A stretch of DNA of 25,509 bases. Source: a virus. Below the pieces are notes generated by a model. The model did not search any database, was not told where the DNA came from, and saw nothing but the letters and a program-made list of their open reading frames with translations. The translations under genes and the position numbers were made by a program. The stretch lies in IMG/VR virus record IMGVR_UViG_3300010158_003988, positions 1-25,509 of that record. One strand, written 5' to 3'. Shown here one piece after another: positions 1,735-17,016 of the stretch (positions within the stretch are counted from its first letter, which is position 1; every line of letters starts with the position of its first letter).

Positions 1735-2549
1735 TGTAGTCTCTTGATTATATCTGCTATACCTGCGTCTAATGTATACTGTGTTTCAAATCCATACTTT
1801 TCTCTTGCATAAGCTGTGTCACATTGCCATACCAGTGTATCGTGTGCCCGCATAAACGAGTCTTTGAATGTAACCGGAGCCTGTCGTCCTGTTACTCTTT
1901 CCCATGCCGCCAACACTTGTGAATTGGTAGTTTGTACTCCCGAACCAAAGTTAACAAGTTCTCCTGGAGTCCAGTCATGTCCAATTAATATTTCAATGCC
2001 GCGAATGAAATCTTCAATGTAGATAAAGTCATGCACACCTTCAAAAATAGTCATTGGTTCATTTTTAAAAAATGCTCGGTACAGGGTGGGAAACAGTCTG
2101 CGTGGGCGTTCATAGGCACCATAGCCCGAATAGATACGTGCCACGCAGGTGTGTATACCAAACTGTCTAGCATATCCTTGACACAACAGCGTGGCAGCAC
2201 CTTTGGTAGCTTCGTACACATTCTGTGGATTGATTCTATCTGTTTCACAGGTGGCACGATCCACAGGACCGTACTCGGCACTGCTGCCAATGGTGATCAT
2301 TCTAGCCTCAGGATTGAGTCTTTGCCATTCCAGTATTTCGTACACTAGGCCAATATTGGATTGTTGCATTACATCGGCATTGTAAATCTCAGCCGCACAG
2401 TGCAATATTAACTCGGGCTGATATAAATTCAATGCCGCGGTCAAGGATATGGAGTTTCTACTCCATACCACAACTTCATCGGTCCGCTCAAAGTGTTCCT
2501 GAAAACTCTTGCCAATAAATCCCGAAGTGCCTGTAATTAATATTTTCAT
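1731..2549 (-). CDS. NAD(P)-dependent NDP-sugar epimerase/dehydratase/reductase (extended SDR)
   Basis: The start is placed at 2549, where the protein begins MKILITGTSGFIG, the Rossmann GxxGxxG motif; an in-frame extension to 2669 has no SDR features. The 272-residue product has the extended-SDR catalytic YxxxK as YEATK, with a preceding TIGSSAEYG active-site strand. It resembles the 4-ketoreductases and epimerases that finish deoxysugar pathways (RfbJ/GDP-4-keto-6-deoxymannose reductase-like). The ATGA overlap with the upstream glycosyltransferase (2546-2549) and with the downstream transketolase subunit places it firmly in the operon. Reduction or epimerisation of a 4-keto sugar made by the RfbH-like enzyme is a reasonable inference; the exact reaction is not visible. 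Confidence 0.87.
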   Translation of the reverse strand: MKILITGTSGFIGKSFQEHFERTDEVVVWSRNSISLTAALNLYQPELILHCAAEIYNADVMQQSNIGLVYEILEWQRLNPEARMITIGSSAEYGPVDRATCETDRINPQNVYEATKGAATLLCQGYARQFGIHTCVARIYSGYGAYERPRRLFPTLYRAFFKNEPMTIFEGVHDFIYIEDFIRGIEILIGHDWTPGELVNFGSGVQTTNSQVLAAWERVTGRQAPVTFKDSFMRAHDTLVWQCDTAYAREKYGFETQYTLDAGIADIIKRLQ

Positions 2550-3187
2550 CTTGTGATTTTCGTCAACATCTCTGTGGCCTGCTGTATGCGTACCGGCTTG
2601 TGTAATCCCGGCCAATGCACAATCCAATCGCCTGGTGTCCATTCCCCACTGAGACCAAATATATCCCAACGCACATCACAGTAGTCGTATGGTGCTTGTA
2701 CGTAGCTGTTCATGTATTTCTGTGGTACAATTTTAACTATGTCGGTGTAATCCTCGATACTGTCAATTATGACCTGTTGTTCTGCCCATTCGGCTTCAGC
2801 GTATTCACTTTCACGATTTAAAATCATTTGCAAATAGCCACGCCCTTGGGGTGAGTTGCGTACTAAAATATTTCCAGCATTTAGATTCAATCTGTCCACT
2901 GGCATGATAAAATGATAACCTTCATCAATCTTGTCATCAATGCTGACAGTTAAGTTAGTTATTGTAGCATCACATTCGGTAAACAACAACCAGTCAATGT
3001 CCGGATGTGTGTTTAACAAGTCCAACATGTAGTGAATTTTATTAAAGCCCATGATGGGACTGTAGCGTGAATCACGCAACACGTGAAATTGATAACCCCA
3101 ACGTTCACAATACTCACGCTTGGGTGCGTCAGTCAAGTCGGCTAGGTCTTGATAGTTTTCTAAGTTAATTGAAGCAACGGCATGCAT
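2546..3187 (-). CDS. GT34-like glycosyltransferase
   Basis: This 213-residue protein resembles galactosyl/mannosyltransferases of the GMA12/MNN10 type (GT34). Supporting segments are the N-terminal HAVASINLENYQDLADLT, FNKIHYMLDLL, the acidic strand end DWLLFTECDATI (ECD at 71-73, where family members carry the metal-binding motif), GNILVRNSPQG, EQQVIID and the C-terminal WIVHWPGL. These occur in the right order for the family. An AGGA Shine-Dalgarno lies 7 nt before the ATG. It lies 11 bp after the GT17 gene and overlaps the SDR start by ATGA. It probably adds one sugar of the glycan made by this operon; donor and acceptor are unknown. Confidence 0.7.
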   Translation of the reverse strand: MHAVASINLENYQDLADLTDAPKREYCERWGYQFHVLRDSRYSPIMGFNKIHYMLDLLNTHPDIDWLLFTECDATITNLTVSIDDKIDEGYHFIMPVDRLNLNAGNILVRNSPQGRGYLQMILNRESEYAEAEWAEQQVIIDSIEDYTDIVKIVPQKYMNSYVQAPYDYCDVRWDIFGLSGEWTPGDWIVHWPGLHKPVRIQQATEMLTKITR

Positions 3188-3198
3188 ATAAGGTCCTG

Positions 3199-4071
3199 TT
3201 ATTCGCTGAAGTAATTTTTAAATTGCTGGTAATTATCTAAAATGTATTGTGGTTGCATACCAGGTTCTGTTGGCACTGTTACTAAATGATAGTCAGCTAA
3301 AAATCTAGCCAGGGCTTCTTCTCTAGTGGTGTTGTCAAACTTTAATTTAGTGTGTTTTGGATCATGGTCACGACTGTGAGCCCATGCACGTTGTTTGGCT
3401 AGAATATCTTCGCCACCGTTTTGATCCATGAATGTAAAATGCCATCCAGCATTGTTGATCAAGTGTGTGCAAATGCGTTGATCACGCAGGGTGGCTGGCA
3501 AACGCTTTTTGTAAGTGGACAACTTTGATACCATGCCGGACGAGTCTGACTCTTCCCAACTTTTGTGCAACAAATTAAACTTGTACCCATAAGTCATGTA
3601 CTTGAACATGATAATAGGCATGTTGGCATGGTCAGTGACAGGTTCCAGTGCAGCACGAACTGTTTCAAAAGTAGCACCACGCAACAACTCGTCTGGACAG
3701 CTTACATACACTATGTCATCATCTGTGGCGCCGGCATCCATCAAGGCCTGTAGAATAAAATTACATTGGAAATGATCTCGGCCCCAGTCAGCACTGCTTT
3801 GTGCTGTACCACGATCCAAAGTTACAAACTCATCTACCAAGTGCGGATAATCTAAGTATGCTTGATCAAACGTGTCAAACTTTCTATATATAATTTTTTC
3901 AGCGTAGGGAGCAAATCGCTCATGATCAAAGTTGAATGACTTGGGCAATCCTGTGTGTGTTTCTCCGGCTTCCACAATGACAAATTTATCAACATGGTGC
4001 CAGTGTTCGTTAAATCTAATTTCCAATAGATCGTTTTCGATCCAGTAATGCATACAGTCATAAACTGCCAT
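3199..4071 (-). CDS. GT17-family glycosyltransferase
   Basis: The start is set at 4071 (MAVYDCMHYW); upstream in-frame codons to 4143 lie in the preceding gene's 3' end. The 290-residue product begins with the GT17 pattern: YDC, then ENDLLEIRFNEHWHHVDKFV, then IVEAGETHTG. Eukaryotic GT17 is the bisecting N-acetylglucosaminyltransferase; bacterial and phage homologues sit in surface-polysaccharide clusters. Further family-like parts are the ADWGRDHFQCN segment and DDIVYVSCPDELL. The gene lies 11 bp downstream of the first split-transketolase pair and 11 bp upstream of the GT34-like gene, so it very likely shares their transcript. Sugar specificity is not predictable. Confidence 0.8.
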   Translation of the reverse strand: MAVYDCMHYWIENDLLEIRFNEHWHHVDKFVIVEAGETHTGLPKSFNFDHERFAPYAEKIIYRKFDTFDQAYLDYPHLVDEFVTLDRGTAQSSADWGRDHFQCNFILQALMDAGATDDDIVYVSCPDELLRGATFETVRAALEPVTDHANMPIIMFKYMTYGYKFNLLHKSWEESDSSGMVSKLSTYKKRLPATLRDQRICTHLINNAGWHFTFMDQNGGEDILAKQRAWAHSRDHDPKHTKLKFDNTTREEALARFLADYHLVTVPTEPGMQPQYILDNYQQFKNYFSE

Positions 4072-4082
4072 AATTGTTTCCT

Positions 4083-4565
4083 TTAGCTGGCTTTTGACAA
4101 ATTCAAGTAACAAGGTTTGTCGTTGTATAAAAACTCTTCCCAAATTGCTTCCAGTTCGGCACTGTCTCGGGGCTTGTAAATTTTAATGTTTGGAAATACC
4201 TGTAGTGCTGCCTCGTCATCGATGGCCCAGTGACTGAATCCCAAGTGTCCGTAATCTCGATCTCTACCTGATCCCACCAGTTTAACAGGAGCCAGTTCGT
4301 GATTTAAATAGTTACGCAACCACTCATAGGGTCTAAAAATAATAAATGGTGTAATGCTGTAACAAATGGGAATGGCACCATTGTGTGTTAAGCCCACAGC
4401 AGTGCCTAATATCAGTTGTTCAGCGGCACCCATGTTGTAGGCACGATCGGGTGCAATTTCTCTTGAACGATTCAGTACACCAAATCCTACATCTCCGGCC
4501 AATAGATAAATTCTTTTGTCTTTTTCTATTGAGTCTGCTAGTAATTCTCCAAAACGTGGTCTCAT
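4083..4565 (-). CDS. Split transketolase-like enzyme, pyrimidine-binding subunit (copy 1)
   Basis: The start is at 4565 (MRPRFGELLADS), where ATGA overlaps the PP-domain gene's stop; a longer in-frame start at 4631 would lie inside that gene. The 160-residue product is a Pyr domain with NMGAAEQ (E49 as the probable cofactor-activating glutamate), LVGSGRDRDYGH, and the ending YLNLSKAS. It has the same length and layout as the paralogue at 644-1126 and likewise lacks the C-terminal transketolase domain. With its PP partner it would form a minimal two-subunit TPP enzyme. Position directly after an RfbH-like dehydrase suggests that it attaches a two-carbon unit to a 4-keto-3,6-dideoxy sugar; this is inference from context. 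Confidence 0.88.
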   Translation of the reverse strand: MRPRFGELLADSIEKDKRIYLLAGDVGFGVLNRSREIAPDRAYNMGAAEQLILGTAVGLTHNGAIPICYSITPFIIFRPYEWLRNYLNHELAPVKLVGSGRDRDYGHLGFSHWAIDDEAALQVFPNIKIYKPRDSAELEAIWEEFLYNDKPCYLNLSKAS

Positions 4566-5170
4566 AGTTGTGCGTAGTCCTCTGGTTTTAAAACATAGTA
4601 GTGTGTAAGTACACCTTGTGCAAACGGCCAATGGGGTGGTTCGGTTTCGCGGATGTTGATTCTTGGCAAAAATGCACGTAGTCTTGTAAAAATATATTCT
4701 TTGTCAATAAAATCGTAGGCAATCATGCCGTTGACATTGACGTAGACTTCTAGATTATCCAATTTGGCTTCATAGATAAATCTCAGTGCTTCCCAGATTG
4801 ATCCTTCGCCACACTCGCCGTCACTGATTAAACAATGCACACGACGATTTCTATTGGCCAGTGCATAGCCCACAGCAACAGTGAGTCCCATGCCCAAACT
4901 GCCGGTACTGCAAGGCAATCCTGATTCAACGTCTCTGTGTGGATGAAGTCCATGCTTTTCAAATAAATGTTCAGCATCTTGCCCTTCATACTTTTCTAAT
5001 ACCACATACCAAGCCAAGGCCGCATGTCCCGAACTTAGGATAAACGGTTCGTCTGGGCCTTTGTTTTGATAAATCTCTTCAATGATATTAACTGCATTTA
5101 AAGTTGAACTCAAATGTCCAATCTTATGCTGGTAACTAATATCAACTACTCTGCGTTCAACATCATTCAT
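4562..5170 (-). CDS. Split transketolase-like enzyme, TPP-binding subunit (copy 1)
   Basis: The start is set at 5170 (MNDVERRVVDISYQHKIGHL). The 202-residue product is a transketolase PP domain. It shows KIGHLSSTLNA (family GHxxxS region), ILSSGHAALAWY, CSTGSLGMGLTVAVGYALA, and the TPP motif SDGECGEGSIWE running to VNVNGMI (D117-G118, N147). As in copy 2, the first glycine of the TPP motif is serine. It begins 8 bp after the RfbH-like gene and its stop overlaps the Pyr-subunit start. In many bacterial surface-polysaccharide clusters an rfbH gene is followed by two such half-transketolases, so this order has cellular precedent; its presence in phage is the notable point. Confidence 0.88.
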   Translation of the reverse strand: MNDVERRVVDISYQHKIGHLSSTLNAVNIIEEIYQNKGPDEPFILSSGHAALAWYVVLEKYEGQDAEHLFEKHGLHPHRDVESGLPCSTGSLGMGLTVAVGYALANRNRRVHCLISDGECGEGSIWEALRFIYEAKLDNLEVYVNVNGMIAYDFIDKEYIFTRLRAFLPRINIRETEPPHWPFAQGVLTHYYVLKPEDYAQL

Positions 5171-5178
5171 AATATTCC

Positions 5179-6495
5179 TTATTTGTATAAACTCATAAAT
5201 CCATCCACCCGTTCGCCAATCCAAGCAATCTGCTCGGGAGTGATCACAGCACTGGCACCATGGAAATAACTGTGTGTCATGACATGTGTGGCCACTGGGA
5301 AATTGGTTTTAGCATCCATGGGATTCATTAAGTGACTGTAGGCCGGTTGCAACATGATGTTGCCGGCAAAGTATGGACGGGTTTGAATTAAATTTTCTTC
5401 CAAATAGTCTACAATTTCATTGCGAGTGAACGGTGCACCCTCACGTATGGTCAGCGGGAAAGCAAACCAACTGGGATCTGCACCTGCTTGGGCTCTTGGC
5501 AAATGGAAAAACTCTTCGTACTTTTCGTAAATGCGGAACAGTAACTGATAGTTGCGTTTTCTTAAAGAGTGAATCTCTGGCAACTTTTTAAGTTGTTGCA
5601 TACCCATGGCACACTGTACTTCGATGGGCTTTAGATTATATCCAATTTCATCATATACAAACTTGTGATCAAATATCTCATCTGGCAATGTGGGAATCCA
5701 GTTGTTGAATCGTTTGTTACAAGTTCCACATTTTAGTTTGTTGGCCACAGGACCCACACAATAACAACCACGACCCCATTCACGGAAACTGCGTAGGATA
5801 ATTTCAGTTTGTGGATCACTAGTAGCAACAAAGCCACCTTCGCCCATGGTCATGTGGTGTGCAGGATAAAAACTGCAACTTGCCATTAGGCCATAACTGC
5901 CCAGTGCTCTACCGTTGAAGGTACTGCCCAGTGCATCACAGCAATCTTCTAAAAATACCAAATTGTATTTCTTGACCAAGGTCATTACATCATCCATGTT
6001 GGGACAATTACCCAACACATGAGCAAATGTAAGAATTTTAATATCATGTTCGCGAATTAAATCTTCTGCTCGTGTCAAATCTAAATTCAGTGTGTCCAGT
6101 TCAATATCCAAGAACACTGGCTCAAATCCCATTTGCAATGTTGGATTCAGTGTAGTAGGGAATCCTGCGATGGGCATCAACACTTTGGTACCACGTGGAA
6201 AGTTATATCCACGCTTGCTGGTCAGTGCTGCCATCATCAGCAAGTTACTGCTACTTCCCGAGTTGGTCAAAATACCACCAGTTTTACCAAACTGCGCCGG
6301 GAATGTTCGTTCAAACTGCATGCCATTGTCGCCCATGACCAACCAGCCTTTGAGCAAACTTTCCACTGCGGCTGCATACTCATCACTGTCAAAGTGTGCG
6401 CCTGCATAGTGTACTAGATCTCGACCTGCTGTCCACGTTTGTGTGGCTTGTTTATTTTTAATATATTCGCGAACTAACTTTAATATTTCTTCCAT
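5179..6495 (-). CDS. rfbH: CDP-4-keto-6-deoxyglucose 3-dehydrase-like (E1/RfbH, PLP + [2Fe-2S])
   Basis: This 438-residue DegT-fold protein carries the E1 hallmark SFYPAHHMTMGEGG: the PLP lysine of ordinary aminotransferases is replaced by histidine (H213), so PLP is not covalently bound. It also has iron-sulfur cysteines C186, C244 and C246 (C-x57-C-x-C spacing as in E1), and then C256 and C259 in KCGTCNKRF. Known E1 has only seven residues before the last cysteine, so there is a small insertion here. E1 removes the 3-hydroxyl of CDP-4-keto-6-deoxyglucose on the way to 3,6-dideoxyhexoses and needs a reductase partner (E3), which is not in this window; nor are RfbF or RfbG. It lies 2 bp after an SDR gene and just before the split transketolase. 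Confidence 0.93.
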   Translation of the reverse strand: MEEILKLVREYIKNKQATQTWTAGRDLVHYAGAHFDSDEYAAAVESLLKGWLVMGDNGMQFERTFPAQFGKTGGILTNSGSSSNLLMMAALTSKRGYNFPRGTKVLMPIAGFPTTLNPTLQMGFEPVFLDIELDTLNLDLTRAEDLIREHDIKILTFAHVLGNCPNMDDVMTLVKKYNLVFLEDCCDALGSTFNGRALGSYGLMASCSFYPAHHMTMGEGGFVATSDPQTEIILRSFREWGRGCYCVGPVANKLKCGTCNKRFNNWIPTLPDEIFDHKFVYDEIGYNLKPIEVQCAMGMQQLKKLPEIHSLRKRNYQLLFRIYEKYEEFFHLPRAQAGADPSWFAFPLTIREGAPFTRNEIVDYLEENLIQTRPYFAGNIMLQPAYSHLMNPMDAKTNFPVATHVMTHSYFHGASAVITPEQIAWIGERVDGFMSLYK

Positions 6496-6497
6496 TG

Positions 6498-7466
6498 TTA
6501 TCCTTGACTGATGCGTTTTTTGTACATTTCTACGTTGATGTAGTTGGGCTCACTCCAACCTGCTCGATCTGTTACTGACATCTTGGAGATCAATTCCTCA
6601 ACTGCATTGGGAATTGTAACATAATCCCACTGGCCAAACAAGCCTTGCATCACTCGATTGTCAACAAAATAACTTCTAGGATCCGGAACTCTGTTGTTGA
6701 TGATGGTTAGTTTTGGAATTCTAGGCAACAGTGTACTGCGTATTTCTGTGGCTAGGTCACCTATGCTGTAGTTTTTGGCACTGACATTGATCACTGTGGG
6801 TAAATCTTCATGCACTAAAACTTCGCCATACACACGAATCAAGTCGTCAATGTGGATCAAGGGTCTGCAGGCCTTTTTGTCATTGATATAAATGGTACTG
6901 TCCAATACACTGGTCTTGGTCATGGTGTTGACCACAAGGTCTGTACGCATGCGTGGCGCCCAACCAAACACTGTGGCTTGTCTTAGATTAATTACTTTGA
7001 ATCGACTGTTGCTCAAGTAGTTCAATCCGTGCTCGCTTTGTATCTTACTGATACCATAAGGGAAGTCCACCTGTGGAGTAATCATTTCATCGCTTACTGT
7101 GCGTCCATTACTGCCATACACACTACAACTGCTGGCAAATATAAATTTAGGCACACCTGCTTCACGGGCCAAGTATGCTGTTAGACTGGTTCCGCCCAAG
7201 TTTTCTATAAAATTATGACTGGGTTTGAAGTTGGCCATGGGGTCATTGCTGAGTCCGGCCAAATGAATCACAGCGTCAAACCCTGTATAGGTATCCACTG
7301 TGGCATCAAATATGTCCATTTTGGTCACGGTGACGTTTGGCCCGGCTTCAACATTGCATCCAAAATCAAAACGGTCCAACACTGTGATGGTGTGTCCTTG
7401 CGTGGCAAGATACGGTACAAGTTTACTGCCAATATAGCCCGCTCCACCTGTTACGAGTAGTTTCAT
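6498..7466 (-). CDS. NAD(P)-dependent NDP-sugar epimerase/dehydratase (extended SDR), first gene of the operon
   Basis: The protein of 322 residues opens MKLLVTGGAGYIGSKL, the GxxGxxG Rossmann motif, then shows VIHLAGLSNDP, IFASSCSVYG and the catalytic YGISK (YxxxK). RPLIHIDDLIR and INVSAKNYSIGDLA are typical of the C-terminal sugar-binding half of extended SDRs. Relatives act as epimerases, dehydratases or reductases on NDP-sugars, and homologues commonly neighbour rfbH in bacterial clusters. It is the first gene after a strong minus-strand promoter (7492-7520) and has an AGGA ribosome site about 8 nt before the ATG. The exact sugar step cannot be read from sequence alone. Confidence 0.9.
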   Translation of the reverse strand: MKLLVTGGAGYIGSKLVPYLATQGHTITVLDRFDFGCNVEAGPNVTVTKMDIFDATVDTYTGFDAVIHLAGLSNDPMANFKPSHNFIENLGGTSLTAYLAREAGVPKFIFASSCSVYGSNGRTVSDEMITPQVDFPYGISKIQSEHGLNYLSNSRFKVINLRQATVFGWAPRMRTDLVVNTMTKTSVLDSTIYINDKKACRPLIHIDDLIRVYGEVLVHEDLPTVINVSAKNYSIGDLATEIRSTLLPRIPKLTIINNRVPDPRSYFVDNRVMQGLFGQWDYVTIPNAVEELISKMSVTDRAGWSEPNYINVEMYKKRISQG

Positions 7467-7570: not shown

Positions 7571-8284
7571 ATGAAACCACTTTTTATTTTAACCAGCGCC
7601 TTGAATACCAAATTTGGCGTACACTCGAACTCTCAGCGACTCACCCAAACACTAGACAGTATAGAATCCATACGCAGATATTGTCCTGAGGCCAGTATTG
7701 CTGTTGTGGAGATGGGCGGTATTGCCTCCACTGATGAGCAAATTGCCACTATAGAATCCCAGGTAGAATACTACTACAACTTCAGTGAAAACGAAGCTGT
7801 GCAAGGTATATTCCACAGTACTGACAACTGGGACATTGTAAAAAATACCACAGAAGTAATGATATTTGGTGAACTGCTCTCACAAATGACAGCGGCTAAA
7901 ATTCCTGAACAGTTTGATAGAATATTTAAAATGTCGGGACGTTATCAACTCACCGAAAGATTCAATCCCCAATATTACAGCACAGTACCGGATCGCATTG
8001 TGGTGTTGGAACGCAAGTTGAGCCAATTCCCTCCCTCAGTAACCGACGGCATGGAATACCAATACATGAGCAGATTATGGAGTTGGCCAGCCAATTGTAC
8101 AGATCAAATCATCGACAGTTATCTCAGAGGATTTGTGGGCATGGCACAGCGACTGGATGTGGGCGGCTATTTTGACATTGAACACATGTTGTATTATTAC
8201 CTGCCCGAAGCACTGGTAACAGCAGTACCAGTGGTGGGCCTGCGTGGATTGCTTGGACCGAATGGAATACAAATTGAAGATTGA
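7571..8284 (+). CDS. Putative GT-A-like glycosyltransferase
   Basis: The 237-residue product has no motif that I can assign with certainty. FILTSALNT at the N-terminus, TQTLDSIESIRRYCPEASIA followed by VVEMGG, and RIFKMSGRYQLTERFN in the middle resemble the nucleotide-sugar-binding strands of small GT-A-like transferases found in surface-glycan clusters. It is the first gene of a rightward operon whose next members are a GT9 enzyme, an FkbM methyltransferase and another GT9-related protein, which supports a glycan role. It has a strong promoter but no ribosome site, and its 3' end overlaps the GT9 gene. A function other than sugar transfer cannot be excluded. Confidence 0.6.
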   Translation: MKPLFILTSALNTKFGVHSNSQRLTQTLDSIESIRRYCPEASIAVVEMGGIASTDEQIATIESQVEYYYNFSENEAVQGIFHSTDNWDIVKNTTEVMIFGELLSQMTAAKIPEQFDRIFKMSGRYQLTERFNPQYYSTVPDRIVVLERKLSQFPPSVTDGMEYQYMSRLWSWPANCTDQIIDSYLRGFVGMAQRLDVGGYFDIEHMLYYYLPEALVTAVPVVGLRGLLGPNGIQIED

Positions 8285-9164
8285 ACAACCCATTAATATC
8301 TTGGTACAACGGCGTGCCGCCATTGGTGATGTCATTATGACCACTGGAGTAGTGCGTGAATTGAAACGACGCTACGGGGCAGATGCTGGCATTGATGTGG
8401 CCACAGACTGCATGGAAGTGTATAGAAACAATCCACATGTGAGAAATTTAATACCCATGGCAGCAGTGGAAGCCGGGCGTTACGATGTTTACATCAACTT
8501 GGATGACGCTTACGAGATCAATCCCTTAAATCACTACGTGGACAGTTATTTTTATCGTGCGTTTGGCAGTACAAATTTCAATCGCAGTGTGGAACTGTTC
8601 CCGGACACCACAGACACAGTCCCGGTGGATCAAGATCTACAGGAGATCGGTACAAAATTCATTGTGGTTCACATGCGTAACTGGCACTGGGGTGCCAAGA
8701 ACATTTCCTTGGAGGTATGGTACGATGTATTTGCACAATTATTTACAGCACGTACAGACTTTCGAATAGTCACAGTGGGCGGCGCAACAGATCATACATT
8801 AGAGCATCCTTTGTTCTTTGATGCACGTGATAGATACAACAGCCAACAGTTAAAATACCTATGTGACCATGCTAGAGCATTTGTTGGTATAGATTCTGGT
8901 CCCATGCAGTGTGCAGCGGCAAGTTCAACACACATTGTTGCCTTGTTGACACATTTGCAACCCCAACGTATTATACCACATAGACGCATGGATATCAATT
9001 GGCATGCTACCCCGATAACAACACTGGAGGACTGTCATGGTTGCAATGACCATCAGGCTAGACCCATAAGACAAATTGTATGTGAAAAAGGCAACTATCC
9101 CTGCACCAACAATTTTGATACCAAACAAATAACCACAGCCATATTAACACAACTAGGAGAATAA
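8262..9164 (+). CDS. GT9-family glycosyltransferase (heptosyltransferase-like)
   Basis: The N-terminus INILVQRRAAIGDVIMTTGV matches the acceptor-binding start of ADP-heptose:LPS heptosyltransferases (GT9), and FVGIDSGPMQCAAASSTHIV matches their C-terminal donor-binding loop with its DSGPMH-like signature (Q in place of H). The product has 300 residues, a little short for a GT9 member (about 320-350). The ATG at 8262 is chosen because the GT9 core begins right after it; a GTG at 8244 in the same frame is possible. The gene overlaps the previous one by 23 bp. Cysteines in the C-terminal stretch (DCHGCND, then CEKGNYPC) are unusual for GT9 and might bind a metal. Acceptor is unknown. Confidence 0.82.
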   Translation: MEYKLKIEQPINILVQRRAAIGDVIMTTGVVRELKRRYGADAGIDVATDCMEVYRNNPHVRNLIPMAAVEAGRYDVYINLDDAYEINPLNHYVDSYFYRAFGSTNFNRSVELFPDTTDTVPVDQDLQEIGTKFIVVHMRNWHWGAKNISLEVWYDVFAQLFTARTDFRIVTVGGATDHTLEHPLFFDARDRYNSQQLKYLCDHARAFVGIDSGPMQCAAASSTHIVALLTHLQPQRIIPHRRMDINWHATPITTLEDCHGCNDHQARPIRQIVCEKGNYPCTNNFDTKQITTAILTQLGE

Positions 9165-9165
9165 T

Positions 9166-9894
9166 TTGAGAAACTGGGACGAATTTTTTACATTTATAAA
9201 GCAACAGGGATTTGATCCTGCCACTGTGGTTGATGTTGGAGTGGCCACTGACACCGAGGAAATGTATCGTCATTTCCCCCAGGCACAATACCTGTTTGTA
9301 GAACCTTTGGCAGAATTTGAACCCAGCCTACAACAACTGTGCCGTCGTTATCGCGGTAACTACATGTTGGCCGCGGCTGGTGCAGAAAATGGTGAAATCG
9401 CTTTCAACGTGCCCACTGACCTGGGTGGCAGCAGTAGATTCACTACACTGGAAGCTGAAGCAGGTGACTATGAAATGCGAGCTAGAACAGTTCCGCAGTA
9501 CACACTGGACAGCATGTGGGAAGCATTTGAATTGTCGGGTCCTGCATTGCTTAAAATTGATGTACAGGGCGGAGAGTTGGAAGTGGTCAAAGGTGCAGTT
9601 GCATGTTTACCAAACTTTGAATTTGTATTGCTGGAAATTGGCTTGGTGGAACAGTATGTAGGGCAACCAATCTTTCATGAATACTTGAACTTTATGGCCG
9701 AACAAGGCTTTGTTACCTACGACATCATACATACCGGCTTTGCTGAAACAGGTTTACTGGCACAGGTTGACATGGTGTTTGTCAAACAACACAGTCAGTA
9801 CAGAAGCAATCAACGTTGGTTTGTTGATGCCGCCAGTGCAAAAAGAAATTTATCACCGGACTACAAAGGTGTGAGACGCAATGACAGTATCTAA
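9166..9894 (+). CDS. FkbM-family SAM-dependent methyltransferase
   Basis: This 242-residue protein fits the FkbM O-methyltransferase family: a SAM-binding VVDVGVATDTEEMYRHFP loop, an acidic strand end YLFVEPLAEFEP, YTLDSMWEAF, and LLKIDVQGGELEVVKGA, which is the family's conserved ID(V/T)QG-E motif. The frame has no suitable ATG near its start; TTG at 9166 is chosen because AGGAGA lies 5-7 nt upstream. It starts directly after the GT9 stop. Enzymes of this family methylate sugar hydroxyls in polysaccharides and secondary metabolites, so capping or masking a glycan residue is the likely job, inferred from context. Confidence 0.88.
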   Translation: MRNWDEFFTFIKQQGFDPATVVDVGVATDTEEMYRHFPQAQYLFVEPLAEFEPSLQQLCRRYRGNYMLAAAGAENGEIAFNVPTDLGGSSRFTTLEAEAGDYEMRARTVPQYTLDSMWEAFELSGPALLKIDVQGGELEVVKGAVACLPNFEFVLLEIGLVEQYVGQPIFHEYLNFMAEQGFVTYDIIHTGFAETGLLAQVDMVFVKQHSQYRSNQRWFVDAASAKRNLSPDYKGVRRNDSI

Positions 9895-10651
9895 TACGTT
9901 TCGTCATTCTGGTACCTTGGGCGATTTGATTTACAGTTTATCTATTGTAAAGAAAATGCCACCAGGCCGGTTCTTGGTGGCCTTAAACAACATAGAATCA
10001 TGTGTAGCACAATACGGTTATAGACCCGACGAAGTAGATCCTGCACACAGAGGAAGATTTACAGAGCAGGACTATGCATGGTTACTGCCGTTGCTCAAAC
10101 GTCAAAGTTATATTGACTCAGTGGGCACTTGGAGTCAGGGCGATGCTGAGCCCACAGTGGATTTAGATAGATTCCGTGGAACACTGTTTAGAGGTTTTGA
10201 AGGCAACTATGTAGAAGCCTATCACCGTGCGTTCAACATGCCATTTGTAATGCAGGACTACGACACACCTTGGTTGGAAGCAGATCCTGTCGCTGTCAAG
10301 CCCATAGTGGTCAGTCGTACAGCCAGATATCGTTGCCCCAACGGTGACGCAGTGTGGCAAAGTATGGTTGCTGATGCAGACTTGATCAACAATGGTATTT
10401 TTATTGGAACAACAACAGAACATCAAGATTTTGTACAAGTAACAGGTGTTGCTATCCCCCACCACACTGTTAATAATTTCTTAGAATTGGCCAATGTGGT
10501 GGCCGGAGCAGATCTAGTCATGGCCAACCAAAACTTTGTGTACAGCATAGCCATGGGGCTGGGTGTCAGTACAGTGTTAGAAACTATCAAAATAAAACCC
10601 TTGCAACAGAATGAGTGTTTCTTTCCCAGAACCACGTGTCAGTATTTCTAA
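9881..10651 (+). CDS. GT9-related (GT-B-like) glycosyltransferase homologue
   Basis: The 256-residue product begins with FRHSGTLGDLIYSLSIVKKM, like the G-x-GD-I start of GT9/GT-B transferases, and ends with a segment (NFLELANVVAGADLVMANQN, then AMGLGVSTVLET) placed as in the donor-binding half of that fold. The true DSGP motif of GT9 is replaced by ANQN. It overlaps the FkbM gene by 14 bp and is the last gene before the groE promoter. It may be a catalytic transferase or a degenerate homologue that only binds glycan; I cannot tell which. Confidence 0.6.
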   Translation: MTVSNTFRHSGTLGDLIYSLSIVKKMPPGRFLVALNNIESCVAQYGYRPDEVDPAHRGRFTEQDYAWLLPLLKRQSYIDSVGTWSQGDAEPTVDLDRFRGTLFRGFEGNYVEAYHRAFNMPFVMQDYDTPWLEADPVAVKPIVVSRTARYRCPNGDAVWQSMVADADLINNGIFIGTTTEHQDFVQVTGVAIPHHTVNNFLELANVVAGADLVMANQNFVYSIAMGLGVSTVLETIKIKPLQQNECFFPRTTCQYF

Positions 10652-10747: not shown

Positions 10748-12666
<1,919 letters not shown>

Positions 12667-15787: not shown

Positions 15788-15820
15788 ACTTAATTGTTTT
15801 TCAACATAAAGGTAGTAAAA

Positions 15821-16513
15821 ATGAAACGTAAACTAATAGCATTAATGATAGCGGGCTTGTGTGGTACTGGAACCGGTCATGCGGCAGGTTTTGCTGTAAC
15901 CGGCGCCAGTAACAGCAGTATCAACGGTGGCGTAAGTGTGTTTTCCACACAAACAGGTGCAGGCTCCAGCAGTTACTCCGGTTCAGTATCGGCCAGTAAC
16001 TCCATGGGTATCACAACTACCAATACCATCAATCCCACAACAGGTGTGGGCACAATTAATTCTTCCATCAGTTCAACTGGTAGAACTGCAACCAGTGTAA
16101 CAGGTACAGGCACAGGTGGTGCTGAATCTTTTGCTAATCAATCAGGTTTTGCCACAAGAACTATTGATGGCAGTGTCAATGGTGCCACAGGTACACTAAC
16201 AAACTCAGTTGGATCTGCTGGTGGCATTGGTGTATCATCGTTTGGTAGCGGTAGTTCAGCGAATCTCACAGGTGCTGGTACAGTAGCAAGCGGTACCAGT
16301 GCAGTGGGACAAAACGCCACCAGCGTGACTTTTGGATTAAGTACAACTGGTGCAACTTCTGTTACTGGATCTACCAGCAGTGCAACCGCACAAAACAGCA
16401 TTACCAATACTGGATCGGTTTCAAATGCATTAACTGGTTCGTTTCAAGCAGTTGGGTCAACTGGTGCTAATGGTGTGTTTAACGGTACTTTTACTAACGT
16501 GATTGGACAATAA
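15821..16513 (+). CDS. Secreted Gly/Ser/Thr-rich repetitive protein
   Basis: The start is at 15821, with AAAGG upstream; an in-frame start at 15794 would spoil the signal peptide. The 230-residue product has a clear Sec signal (MKRKLIALMIAGLCGTGTGH, then AA-GF) with likely cleavage after GHA. The mature part is almost only Gly, Ser, Thr, Ala, Asn and Val, in irregular short beta-type repeats, with no cysteine. Such composition is seen in beta-solenoid or adhesin-like secreted proteins. It is paired with a second signal-peptide protein 2 bp downstream. Role unknown: export to periplasm or cell surface during infection is what the sequence supports. Confidence 0.8.
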   Translation: MKRKLIALMIAGLCGTGTGHAAGFAVTGASNSSINGGVSVFSTQTGAGSSSYSGSVSASNSMGITTTNTINPTTGVGTINSSISSTGRTATSVTGTGTGGAESFANQSGFATRTIDGSVNGATGTLTNSVGSAGGIGVSSFGSGSSANLTGAGTVASGTSAVGQNATSVTFGLSTTGATSVTGSTSSATAQNSITNTGSVSNALTGSFQAVGSTGANGVFNGTFTNVIGQ

Positions 16514-16515
16514 CT

Positions 16516-17016
16516 ATGAAACTACACCACGGCTTAATTGCATTAGTCATTGTCAGTAACCTTGCTCATGCACAAACTACAAACATGGATGTGGGTGCTG
16601 GTGCGAATTCAACCAATGCAGGTGCCACAAGTATTGCCAATCCCAATGCAACAGGCATTGGCAATACACAAAGCATTAATATTGGTGGCAGTGGCGGCGG
16701 CAGTAGTGATGTTACTTACAACGGCAGTTACACTGTAAAAAATGTACCATCAGTTAATGGTCCCAACTTAACGTCAGGTCTTGATACTTGTATGGGGTCA
16801 ACTTCGGGCAGTTTTAATATTGCCGGATTAGGTTTTGGTGGTGGTACTACATTTGTCGATGACAACTGTAAACGATTGAAACTGGCCCGTGAACTTTGGA
16901 ATTTTGGTATGAAGGCTGGTGCCATTGCATTACTGTGCAACGATGATGAAGTAAGACAGGCATTGGCTGATACTGGTTTTACTTGCCCTGCTCGACGTAA
17001 GAAAGAAAACGAATAA
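16516..17016 (+). CDS. Secreted cysteine-containing protein of unknown function
   Basis: This 166-residue protein has a Sec signal (MKLHHGLIALVIVSNLAHAQ, cleavage likely after AHA), a Gly/Asn/Ser-rich middle like its neighbour, and a more ordered C-terminal part with four cysteines (DTCMGS, DDNCKRLK, ALLCND, GFTCPA) that could form two disulfides in the periplasm. The pattern TCMGSTSG ... NCKRLKLARELWNFGMKAGA resembles a conserved domain I have an impression of from other phage-encoded exported proteins, but I cannot name it. It starts 2 bp after the preceding gene and ends before tandem terminators, so the two form a bicistronic unit. Confidence 0.8.
   Translation: MKLHHGLIALVIVSNLAHAQTTNMDVGAGANSTNAGATSIANPNATGIGNTQSINIGGSGGGSSDVTYNGSYTVKNVPSVNGPNLTSGLDTCMGSTSGSFNIAGLGFGGGTTFVDDNCKRLKLARELWNFGMKAGAIALLCNDDEVRQALADTGFTCPARRKKENE

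Follow-up and report, generated by a model that had tools for sequence, protein, structure and literature searches.

A phage gene trio joining an RfbH-type 3-dehydrase to a minimal split transketolase-like enzyme: a candidate route to branched 3,6-dideoxy sugars

Introduction

Why would a phage encode a nucleotide-sugar 3-dehydrase directly ahead of a two-gene thiamine pyrophosphate (TPP) enzyme? The question is raised by IMG/VR virus record IMGVR_UViG_3300010158_003988, a stretch of 25,509 bases (hereafter, the window). Its minus strand carries RfbH, an E1-type nucleotide-sugar 3-dehydrase (5179-6495, 438 aa), followed by the two parts of a minimal, transketolase-like split enzyme, namely PP1, the TPP-binding half (4562-5170, 202 aa), and PYR1, the Pyr half (4083-4565, 160 aa). 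A sequence-only reading of the locus had proposed that the pair adds a two-carbon branch to the keto sugar made by RfbH, by analogy with yersiniose biosynthesis, in which YerE acts on CDP-3,6-dideoxy-4-keto-glucose (PMC12247030). In the literature, nothing relevant was found on rfbH with transketolase, nor on split transketolase with polysaccharide. From the evidence below, we consider it probable that the three genes encode consecutive steps of a phage-encoded route to a C-branched 3,6-dideoxy sugar for use by phage glycosyltransferases.

Results

RfbH and the minimal split enzyme

The assignment of the window enzyme to the E1/RfbH family is firm, because it passes NCBIfam model NF011936, has Yersinia E1 (3bcx) as its best PDB match (E 2.5e-92), and combines the diagnostic histidine with four cysteines. 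The NF011936 pass was a narrow one, at 423.9 bits against a cut-off of 423, a difference of one bit. His213 stands where the pyridoxal phosphate lysine would be (local sequence SFYPAHHMTMGEGG), and the [2Fe-2S] cysteines follow the E1 spacing, C186-x57-C244-x-C246-x12-C259, with a last spacer longer than that of Yersinia E1. In E1 and SpnQ, a [2Fe-2S] cluster with four cysteines is accompanied by His replacing Lys; E1 requires the reductase E3, and ColD is without the cluster (PMC8987622). No K-type (aminotransferase) DegT proteins were among the 110 hits in the loci, a weak negative since the profile was seeded with His-type sequences.

It was noted that PP1 most likely starts at 5170 rather than at 5224, leaving a gap of 8 nt behind RfbH and an overlap of 4 nt with PYR1. 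The alignment to E. coli transketolase (EcTK) takes in all of PP1 at residues 8-273 and places PYR1 at residues 357-522, so the third transketolase domain is absent; PYR1 ends after 160 aa, at about EcTK residue 522, without the C-terminal TKC domain. The sequence-only description of a 3-dehydrase with His and [2Fe-2S] cysteines, directly followed by the PP and Pyr subunits of a minimal TPP enzyme, was thus borne out in each of these parts. Because the halves score only 82.6 and 56.1 bits with a curated whole-chain transketolase model whose cut-off is 488, the pair is filed as transketolase-like only. PHROGs gave no informative match for either half. The best sequence match for both is the split transketolase of Carboxydothermus, which by structure is also the best or nearly so (AlphaFold2 models, pLDDT 94.9 for PP1 and 94.7 for PYR1).

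INPHARED phages yielded only 14 weak PP1 matches, some in bacterial-looking records, and an environmental viral collection was therefore used for comparison. In 125 related pairs the Pyr halves are likewise short, at less than 215 aa. The residues H19, H49, H76, H190, D117, and N147 of PP1 correspond to H26, H66, H100, H261, D155, and N185 of E. coli TktA, while in PYR1, E49 corresponds to the catalytic E411, H112 to H473, and K158 to R520, with L108 at the D469 position. The donor histidines (H26, H66, H100, H261, and H473), the catalytic Glu, and the Mg/TPP Asp and Asn are retained in the window, as they are in almost all of the 125 distinct pairs. Across 56 sequences, the second residue of the Pyr half is always Arg (Arg2), which, judging by the aligned range, would occupy the position of EcTK R358. 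With its donor-channel, Mg/TPP, and catalytic residues kept, the pair has the look of a functional enzyme whose donor site is of the transketolase type, and its residues and modeled fold suggest that it binds TPP. A 4-nt overlap joins PP to Pyr in 77 of the 125 distinct minimal pairs and RfbH to PP in 24 of the 29 adjacent cases. By these conserved active sites and overlapping junctions, the RfbH-PP-Pyr arrangement exceeds chance.

TPP enzymes in the slot behind viral RfbH

We assessed what follows RfbH in other viruses using only the loci fetched by RfbH queries, because including those fetched by PP/Pyr would be circular. These comprised 81 distinct viral RfbH proteins, 77 of which had room downstream, meaning at least 3 kb or a hit. 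A downstream TPP enzyme was found within 6 kb in 66 of the 77 and within 60 nt in 46, and TPP open reading frames (ORFs) numbered 126 in the 6 kb behind RfbH compared to 7 elsewhere in 1.27 Mb. The 66 enzymes were divided among a decarboxylase-superfamily (DC) type resembling acetolactate synthase and YerE (n = 36), a transketolase (TK) type (n = 17), and a KADH type corresponding to pyruvate dehydrogenase (PDH) E1 (n = 13). The strongest support for the proposed step comes from those viral RfbH loci that do not have the window's kind of pair, where other TPP enzymes take the same position. The DC-type enzymes are acetolactate-synthase-superfamily chains, whole or split in two, with a best PDB match (E 2.6e-108) to 8rph, which is JanthE, a YerE-like ketone-accepting enzyme (PMC12188165). 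Those of the KADH type are minimal PDH-E1 alpha and beta halves. The window pair matches transketolase domains and is not of the decarboxylase superfamily (acetolactate synthase-like), and it shares its position after E1 with the JanthE-like enzymes of related viruses. The same three TPP superfamilies are named in a review as forming branched sugars (PMC12247030).

Mapped on the best RfbH tree, the TPP enzymes switch type a minimum of 22 times, and the well-supported branches require no fewer than 10 changes of the TK label. Outside its own pair, the nearest relative of the window RfbH, which is 87% identical (locus L044), is accompanied by a DC-type enzyme. The repeated replacement of one superfamily by another in a fixed slot indicates the same kind of step, and the swap appears best explained by one shared task, namely carboligation onto the keto sugar produced by RfbH. 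The earlier suggestion of a yersiniose-like branching step carried out by a transketolase-type enzyme gains support from this three-superfamily slot with its YerE-like members, as well as from the kept donor histidines and the Asp-to-Leu change described below.

Some slots were unusual in their makeup. Minimal PDH-E1 alpha and beta halves adjoin RfbH at L055:9313-11091, L252:9317-10473, and L320:9311-10482 (13 viral loci are of this kind), and in L055 a 217-aa ORF resembling a GIY-YIG endonuclease lies between the two halves. A single ORF at L302:13153-14316 matches both the alpha and beta profiles, as a fusion, and behind its RfbH the same virus also encodes a YerE-like enzyme in split form. 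In two other loci, RfbH is separated from the YerE-like enzyme by a NeuB/PseI-like synthase (L045:9329-10435) or a class I aminotransferase-like protein (L049:9317-10483); these might make or process the 2-keto-acid donor.

Donor and acceptor of the predicted reaction

The two halves of the pair differ in what they imply about the donor. The PP1 model is nearest to transketolases (Z 22.8 and rmsd 2.2 over 202 aligned residues to 6yak; Z 21.4 to human transketolase; about 18 to DXS), and PP1 keeps the equivalent of H261, which is not His in DXS. PYR1 is structurally at least as near DXS (Z 22.6) as transketolase (20.4 to 6yaj and 18.4-18.6 to EcTK), and its R101 lies seven residues before the D469 position, as in DXS. 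Since the DC and PDH-type enzymes of the same slot are also expected to use 2-keto acids (PMC12247030), the branching step might proceed with an acetyl (acetaldehyde) group taken from pyruvate, as by YerE or DXS, in place of a ketol. Against this stand the features of the PP half and the finding that a reconstituted split transketolase made no use of pyruvate (PMC7661550), and we regard acetyl transfer as unlikely.

The acceptor side was characterized through the position equivalent to EcTK D469, which is Leu in 51 pairs (type 1, including window PYR1) and Asp in 69 (type 2, including PYR2 of a second window pair). A His-type 3-dehydratase was found within 6 kb of 42 of the 51 Leu pairs compared to 4 of the 69 Asp pairs (distinct pairs). 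Four of the nine Leu exceptions begin at the extreme end of the available sequence, and only three have at least 2 kb upstream. Of the four Asp pairs with such an enzyme nearby, two come from the window and its near-twin, and in both of these the RfbH goes with the first pair. It was noted that a ColD-like dehydratase replaces RfbH beside some Leu pairs. Mutants of D469 in E. coli transketolase shift in activity to propionaldehyde, a non-alpha-hydroxylated aldehyde, with the propionaldehyde/glycolaldehyde activity ratio rising from 0.04 in the wild type to 0.38 in D469T (PMC3657141). The 4-keto-3,6-dideoxy acceptor would have no hydroxyl beside its ketone because the 3-dehydratase has removed it, and the fit of Leu to such a stripped acceptor is suggestive.

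The sequence similarity of the pair to transketolases would also suit a conventional role, in which a ketose or a small precursor sugar is produced for use elsewhere in the cluster and the place beside RfbH reflects only operon packing. The second pair, which keeps Asp469 and lies near SDR2, a cupin, a kinase-nucleotidyltransferase, and a GatZ-like aldolase, possibly belongs to such a route. However, TPP enzymes of unrelated superfamilies would not be expected to take over the slot of an ordinary transketolase, and both the 4-nt overlaps with RfbH and the acceptor-site Leu of the RfbH-linked pair count against such a role, which we rate as quite unlikely.

Distribution among viruses and cells

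Viral contigs yielded far more close relatives of the pair than did 84,980 prokaryotic genomes. No rate is drawn from the counts of 337 confirmed viral stretches and 47 (mostly distant) stretches in genomes, since the scans differed in peptide patterns and collection size. T4-type gp23 and terminase genes occur in the records of three large relatives, which places the cassette in genuine large phages. As seen in this single window, the genes could in principle be passengers acquired with part of a host cluster for capsule or O-antigen, functionless for the phage or decayed. We hold this to be very improbable given the intact frames, the catalytic residues invariant in 125 distinct pairs, some of them in large gp23- and terminase-bearing phage records, and the far greater number of close relatives found in viral contigs.

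Among cellular genomes, relatives of the pair at about 40-50% identity were encountered in Patescibacteria, Omnitrophota, Elusimicrobia, and others (L061-L078 and L104), with no RfbH nearby and a PP half that is mostly longer. Two bacterial genomes have a ColD-like 3-dehydratase near a split transketolase of ordinary length, close by in L097 and about 7 kb away in L098, a hint that the link between 3-dehydratase and transketolase exists in cells too.

Proposed pathway and evidence weighing against it

By analogy with its family, RfbH would remove the C3 hydroxyl, converting an NDP-4-keto-6-deoxyhexose to an NDP-4-keto-3,6-dideoxyhexose. PP1 and PYR1 would assemble, probably as alpha2beta2, with TPP bound between the halves, and would draw on a ketose phosphate or on hydroxypyruvate for a ketol (hydroxyacetyl) unit of two carbons. 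The ketol would then be added at the C4 ketone of the RfbH product to give a tertiary-alcohol, two-carbon-branched octose, a step we infer because of the slot equivalence, the donor residues, and the acceptor-site change. Homology and gene order suggest that short-chain dehydrogenase/reductase (SDR) reduction, FkbM methylation (in relatives), and glycosyltransferase use would follow. In the yersiniose A and erwiniose pathways, an SDR step comes after the TPP carboligase. In related viruses, a YerE-like or PDH-E1-like TPP enzyme would perform the corresponding step. The ketol nature of the two-carbon branch, its C4 position, and a CDP nucleotide are the presumed details of this scheme.

Several observations weigh against the proposed route. 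No E3-type reductase or ferredoxin domain (Fer2, NAD_binding_1) was matched in 20 viral records, all of them possibly incomplete, and RfbH would accordingly need a host electron donor. The 82.7-kb record of the closest relative showed no clear 4,6-dehydratase and only weak TIGR01181 matches, and 11 of the 77 viral RfbH genes are without a downstream TPP enzyme. No transketolase has been demonstrated on a ketone acceptor, the split transketolases of Streptomyces being only proposed for ketones (PMC12247030). Asp-type pairs with RfbH nearby, and no other pair in the searched records, occur in L126 and L134. Moreover, only two changes on the PP/Pyr tree are needed for the Leu/Asp difference, such that the link is a suggestive correlation that is not statistically testable and the Fisher exact test (p 7e-19) is not used as significance.

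Remaining genes of the operon

The minus-strand operon runs from 7466 to the left end of the window in the order SDR1, RfbH, PP1, PYR1, GT17-like, GT34-like, SDR2, PP2, PYR2, cupin, and the start of a nucleotidyltransferase. SDR1 (6498-7466) is an NAD-dependent epimerase/reductase-type SDR (PF01370) whose motif, SSCSVYG, means that it does not have the Asp-Glu dyad of a 4,6-dehydratase. Downstream of PYR1 lie a 290-aa glycosyltransferase family 17-like gene (3199-4071; PF04724, 1.6e-19), a 213-aa glycosyltransferase family 34-like gene (2546-3187; PF05637, 3.8e-16), and SDR2 (1731-2552; PF01370, 5.4e-28), of epimerase/reductase type and, from its neighborhoods, the gene that usually lies upstream of type-2 PP/Pyr pairs. 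Neither SDR1 nor SDR2 has the dyad, and no 4,6-dehydratase was found in the window.

The second pair, PP2 (1123-1734, 203 aa) and PYR2 (644-1126, 160 aa), is paralogous to the first by sequence comparison (54% and 49% identical), and PYR2 keeps Asp at the D469 position (YEHDGISHW). In relatives, PP2/PYR2 stands alongside SDR2, a 4,6-dehydratase, and an FkbM methyltransferase; in two viruses its neighbors are a cupin, a GatZ-like aldolase, and a fusion of nucleotidyltransferase and APH kinase. The window has a 158-aa cupin resembling the phosphomannose isomerase C-terminus (123-599; PF01050, 6.5e-6) and only the start of the fusion (1-122), which is 512 aa in a 98%-identical relative (L004:13045-14583). 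The nearest relative of the window, contig IMGVR_UViG_3300032216_001981, has RfbH and PP1 that are 98% identical, and there the operon extends into the nucleotidyltransferase-APH kinase fusion and a GatZ/KbaZ-like aldolase.

Cassettes of type 1 are commonly ordered RfbH-PP-Pyr-FkbM methyltransferase-SDR-4,6-dehydratase and those of type 2 GT34-SDR2-FkbM-PP-Pyr-4,6-dehydratase, and the 4,6-dehydratase, SDR, and FkbM genes recur in TK and DC cassettes alike. The 4,6-dehydratases of the relatives resemble RmlB (about 300 bits, under the curated cut-off, with the motif STDEVYG), which suggests dTDP sugars. A sugar nucleotidyltransferase was found in only 2 of the 20 viral records; with this and the apparent lack of E3, the host would supply electrons and, mostly, NDP-glucose. 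The second pair, the apparent lack of E3, and the location of the 4,6-dehydratase in relatives rather than in the window go beyond the sequence-only reading.

On the plus strand, divergent glycan genes occupy 7571-10651, including a GT9-like gene (8313-9164), an FkbM methyltransferase (9166-9894), together with two proteins of unknown family. Phage groES and groEL genes (10748-12666) follow, and the roughly 70% identity of this GroEL to enterobacterial GroEL suggests that the genes were acquired from a proteobacterial host fairly recently. Two neighboring Gly/Ser/Thr-rich ORFs with signal-peptide-like starts (15794-17016), the second without a family match, are possible surface or secreted repeat proteins.

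Discussion

There is, in our estimate, about an even chance of a broader scheme, in which phages run an interchangeable branched-sugar cassette of one 3-dehydrase and a swappable TPP carboligase from three superfamilies, making different branches at C4 of 3,6-dideoxy sugars. Its largely viral two-domain transketolase-type module would then be the first natural transketolase shown with a ketone acceptor. Ketone-accepting TPP enzymes are sought for chiral tertiary alcohols, and none has been demonstrated in the transketolase class (PMC12247030). With more than 100 distinct pairs in a compact two-domain family genetically tied to the maker of the probable keto-sugar acceptor, the ketone question is directly testable, and use of a ketone by such a pair would answer an open question of that enzyme class. 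If the scheme is true, phages go beyond borrowing surface-sugar genes and, through the exchange of a single catalytic module, create variety among rare branched sugars; this would bear on the ways in which surface glycans of host or virion are altered by phages.

Comparison with known systems

Among 3-dehydratases, ColD (GDP-4-keto-6-deoxymannose 3-dehydratase) belongs to the same His-for-Lys family but is without the iron-sulfur cysteines that the window enzyme has. For the TPP enzyme, the closest solved relative by sequence is the split-gene transketolase of Carboxydothermus hydrogenoformans (6yak/6yaj), which likewise has PP and Pyr on separate chains with the TPP and donor residues kept. 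The window pair differs from it in having no C-terminal domain, in its RfbH-linked Leu for Asp469, and in its placement in a nucleotide-sugar cluster; its PP half is about 60 residues shorter than that of E. coli. The split-gene transketolases of miharamycin and amipurimycin in Streptomyces secondary metabolism, likened here by description, are also two-gene enzymes with a proposed hydroxyacetyl addition to a keto sugar (PMC12247030).

The yersiniose A and erwiniose systems (E1 and E3, then YerE or ErwE) present the same order as the window, an E1-type 3-dehydrase and then a TPP carboligase acting on a 4-keto-3,6-dideoxy sugar (PMC12247030). Whereas YerE and ErwE are single chains of the decarboxylase superfamily, the window TPP enzyme is of transketolase type, encoded by two genes and built of two domains. 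The window system is viral with no E3 seen, and related viruses do have YerE-like enzymes in the slot. Relative to the yersiniose-type pathway, the added finding is the exchange, among viruses, of TPP enzymes from three classes after a single 3-dehydrase.

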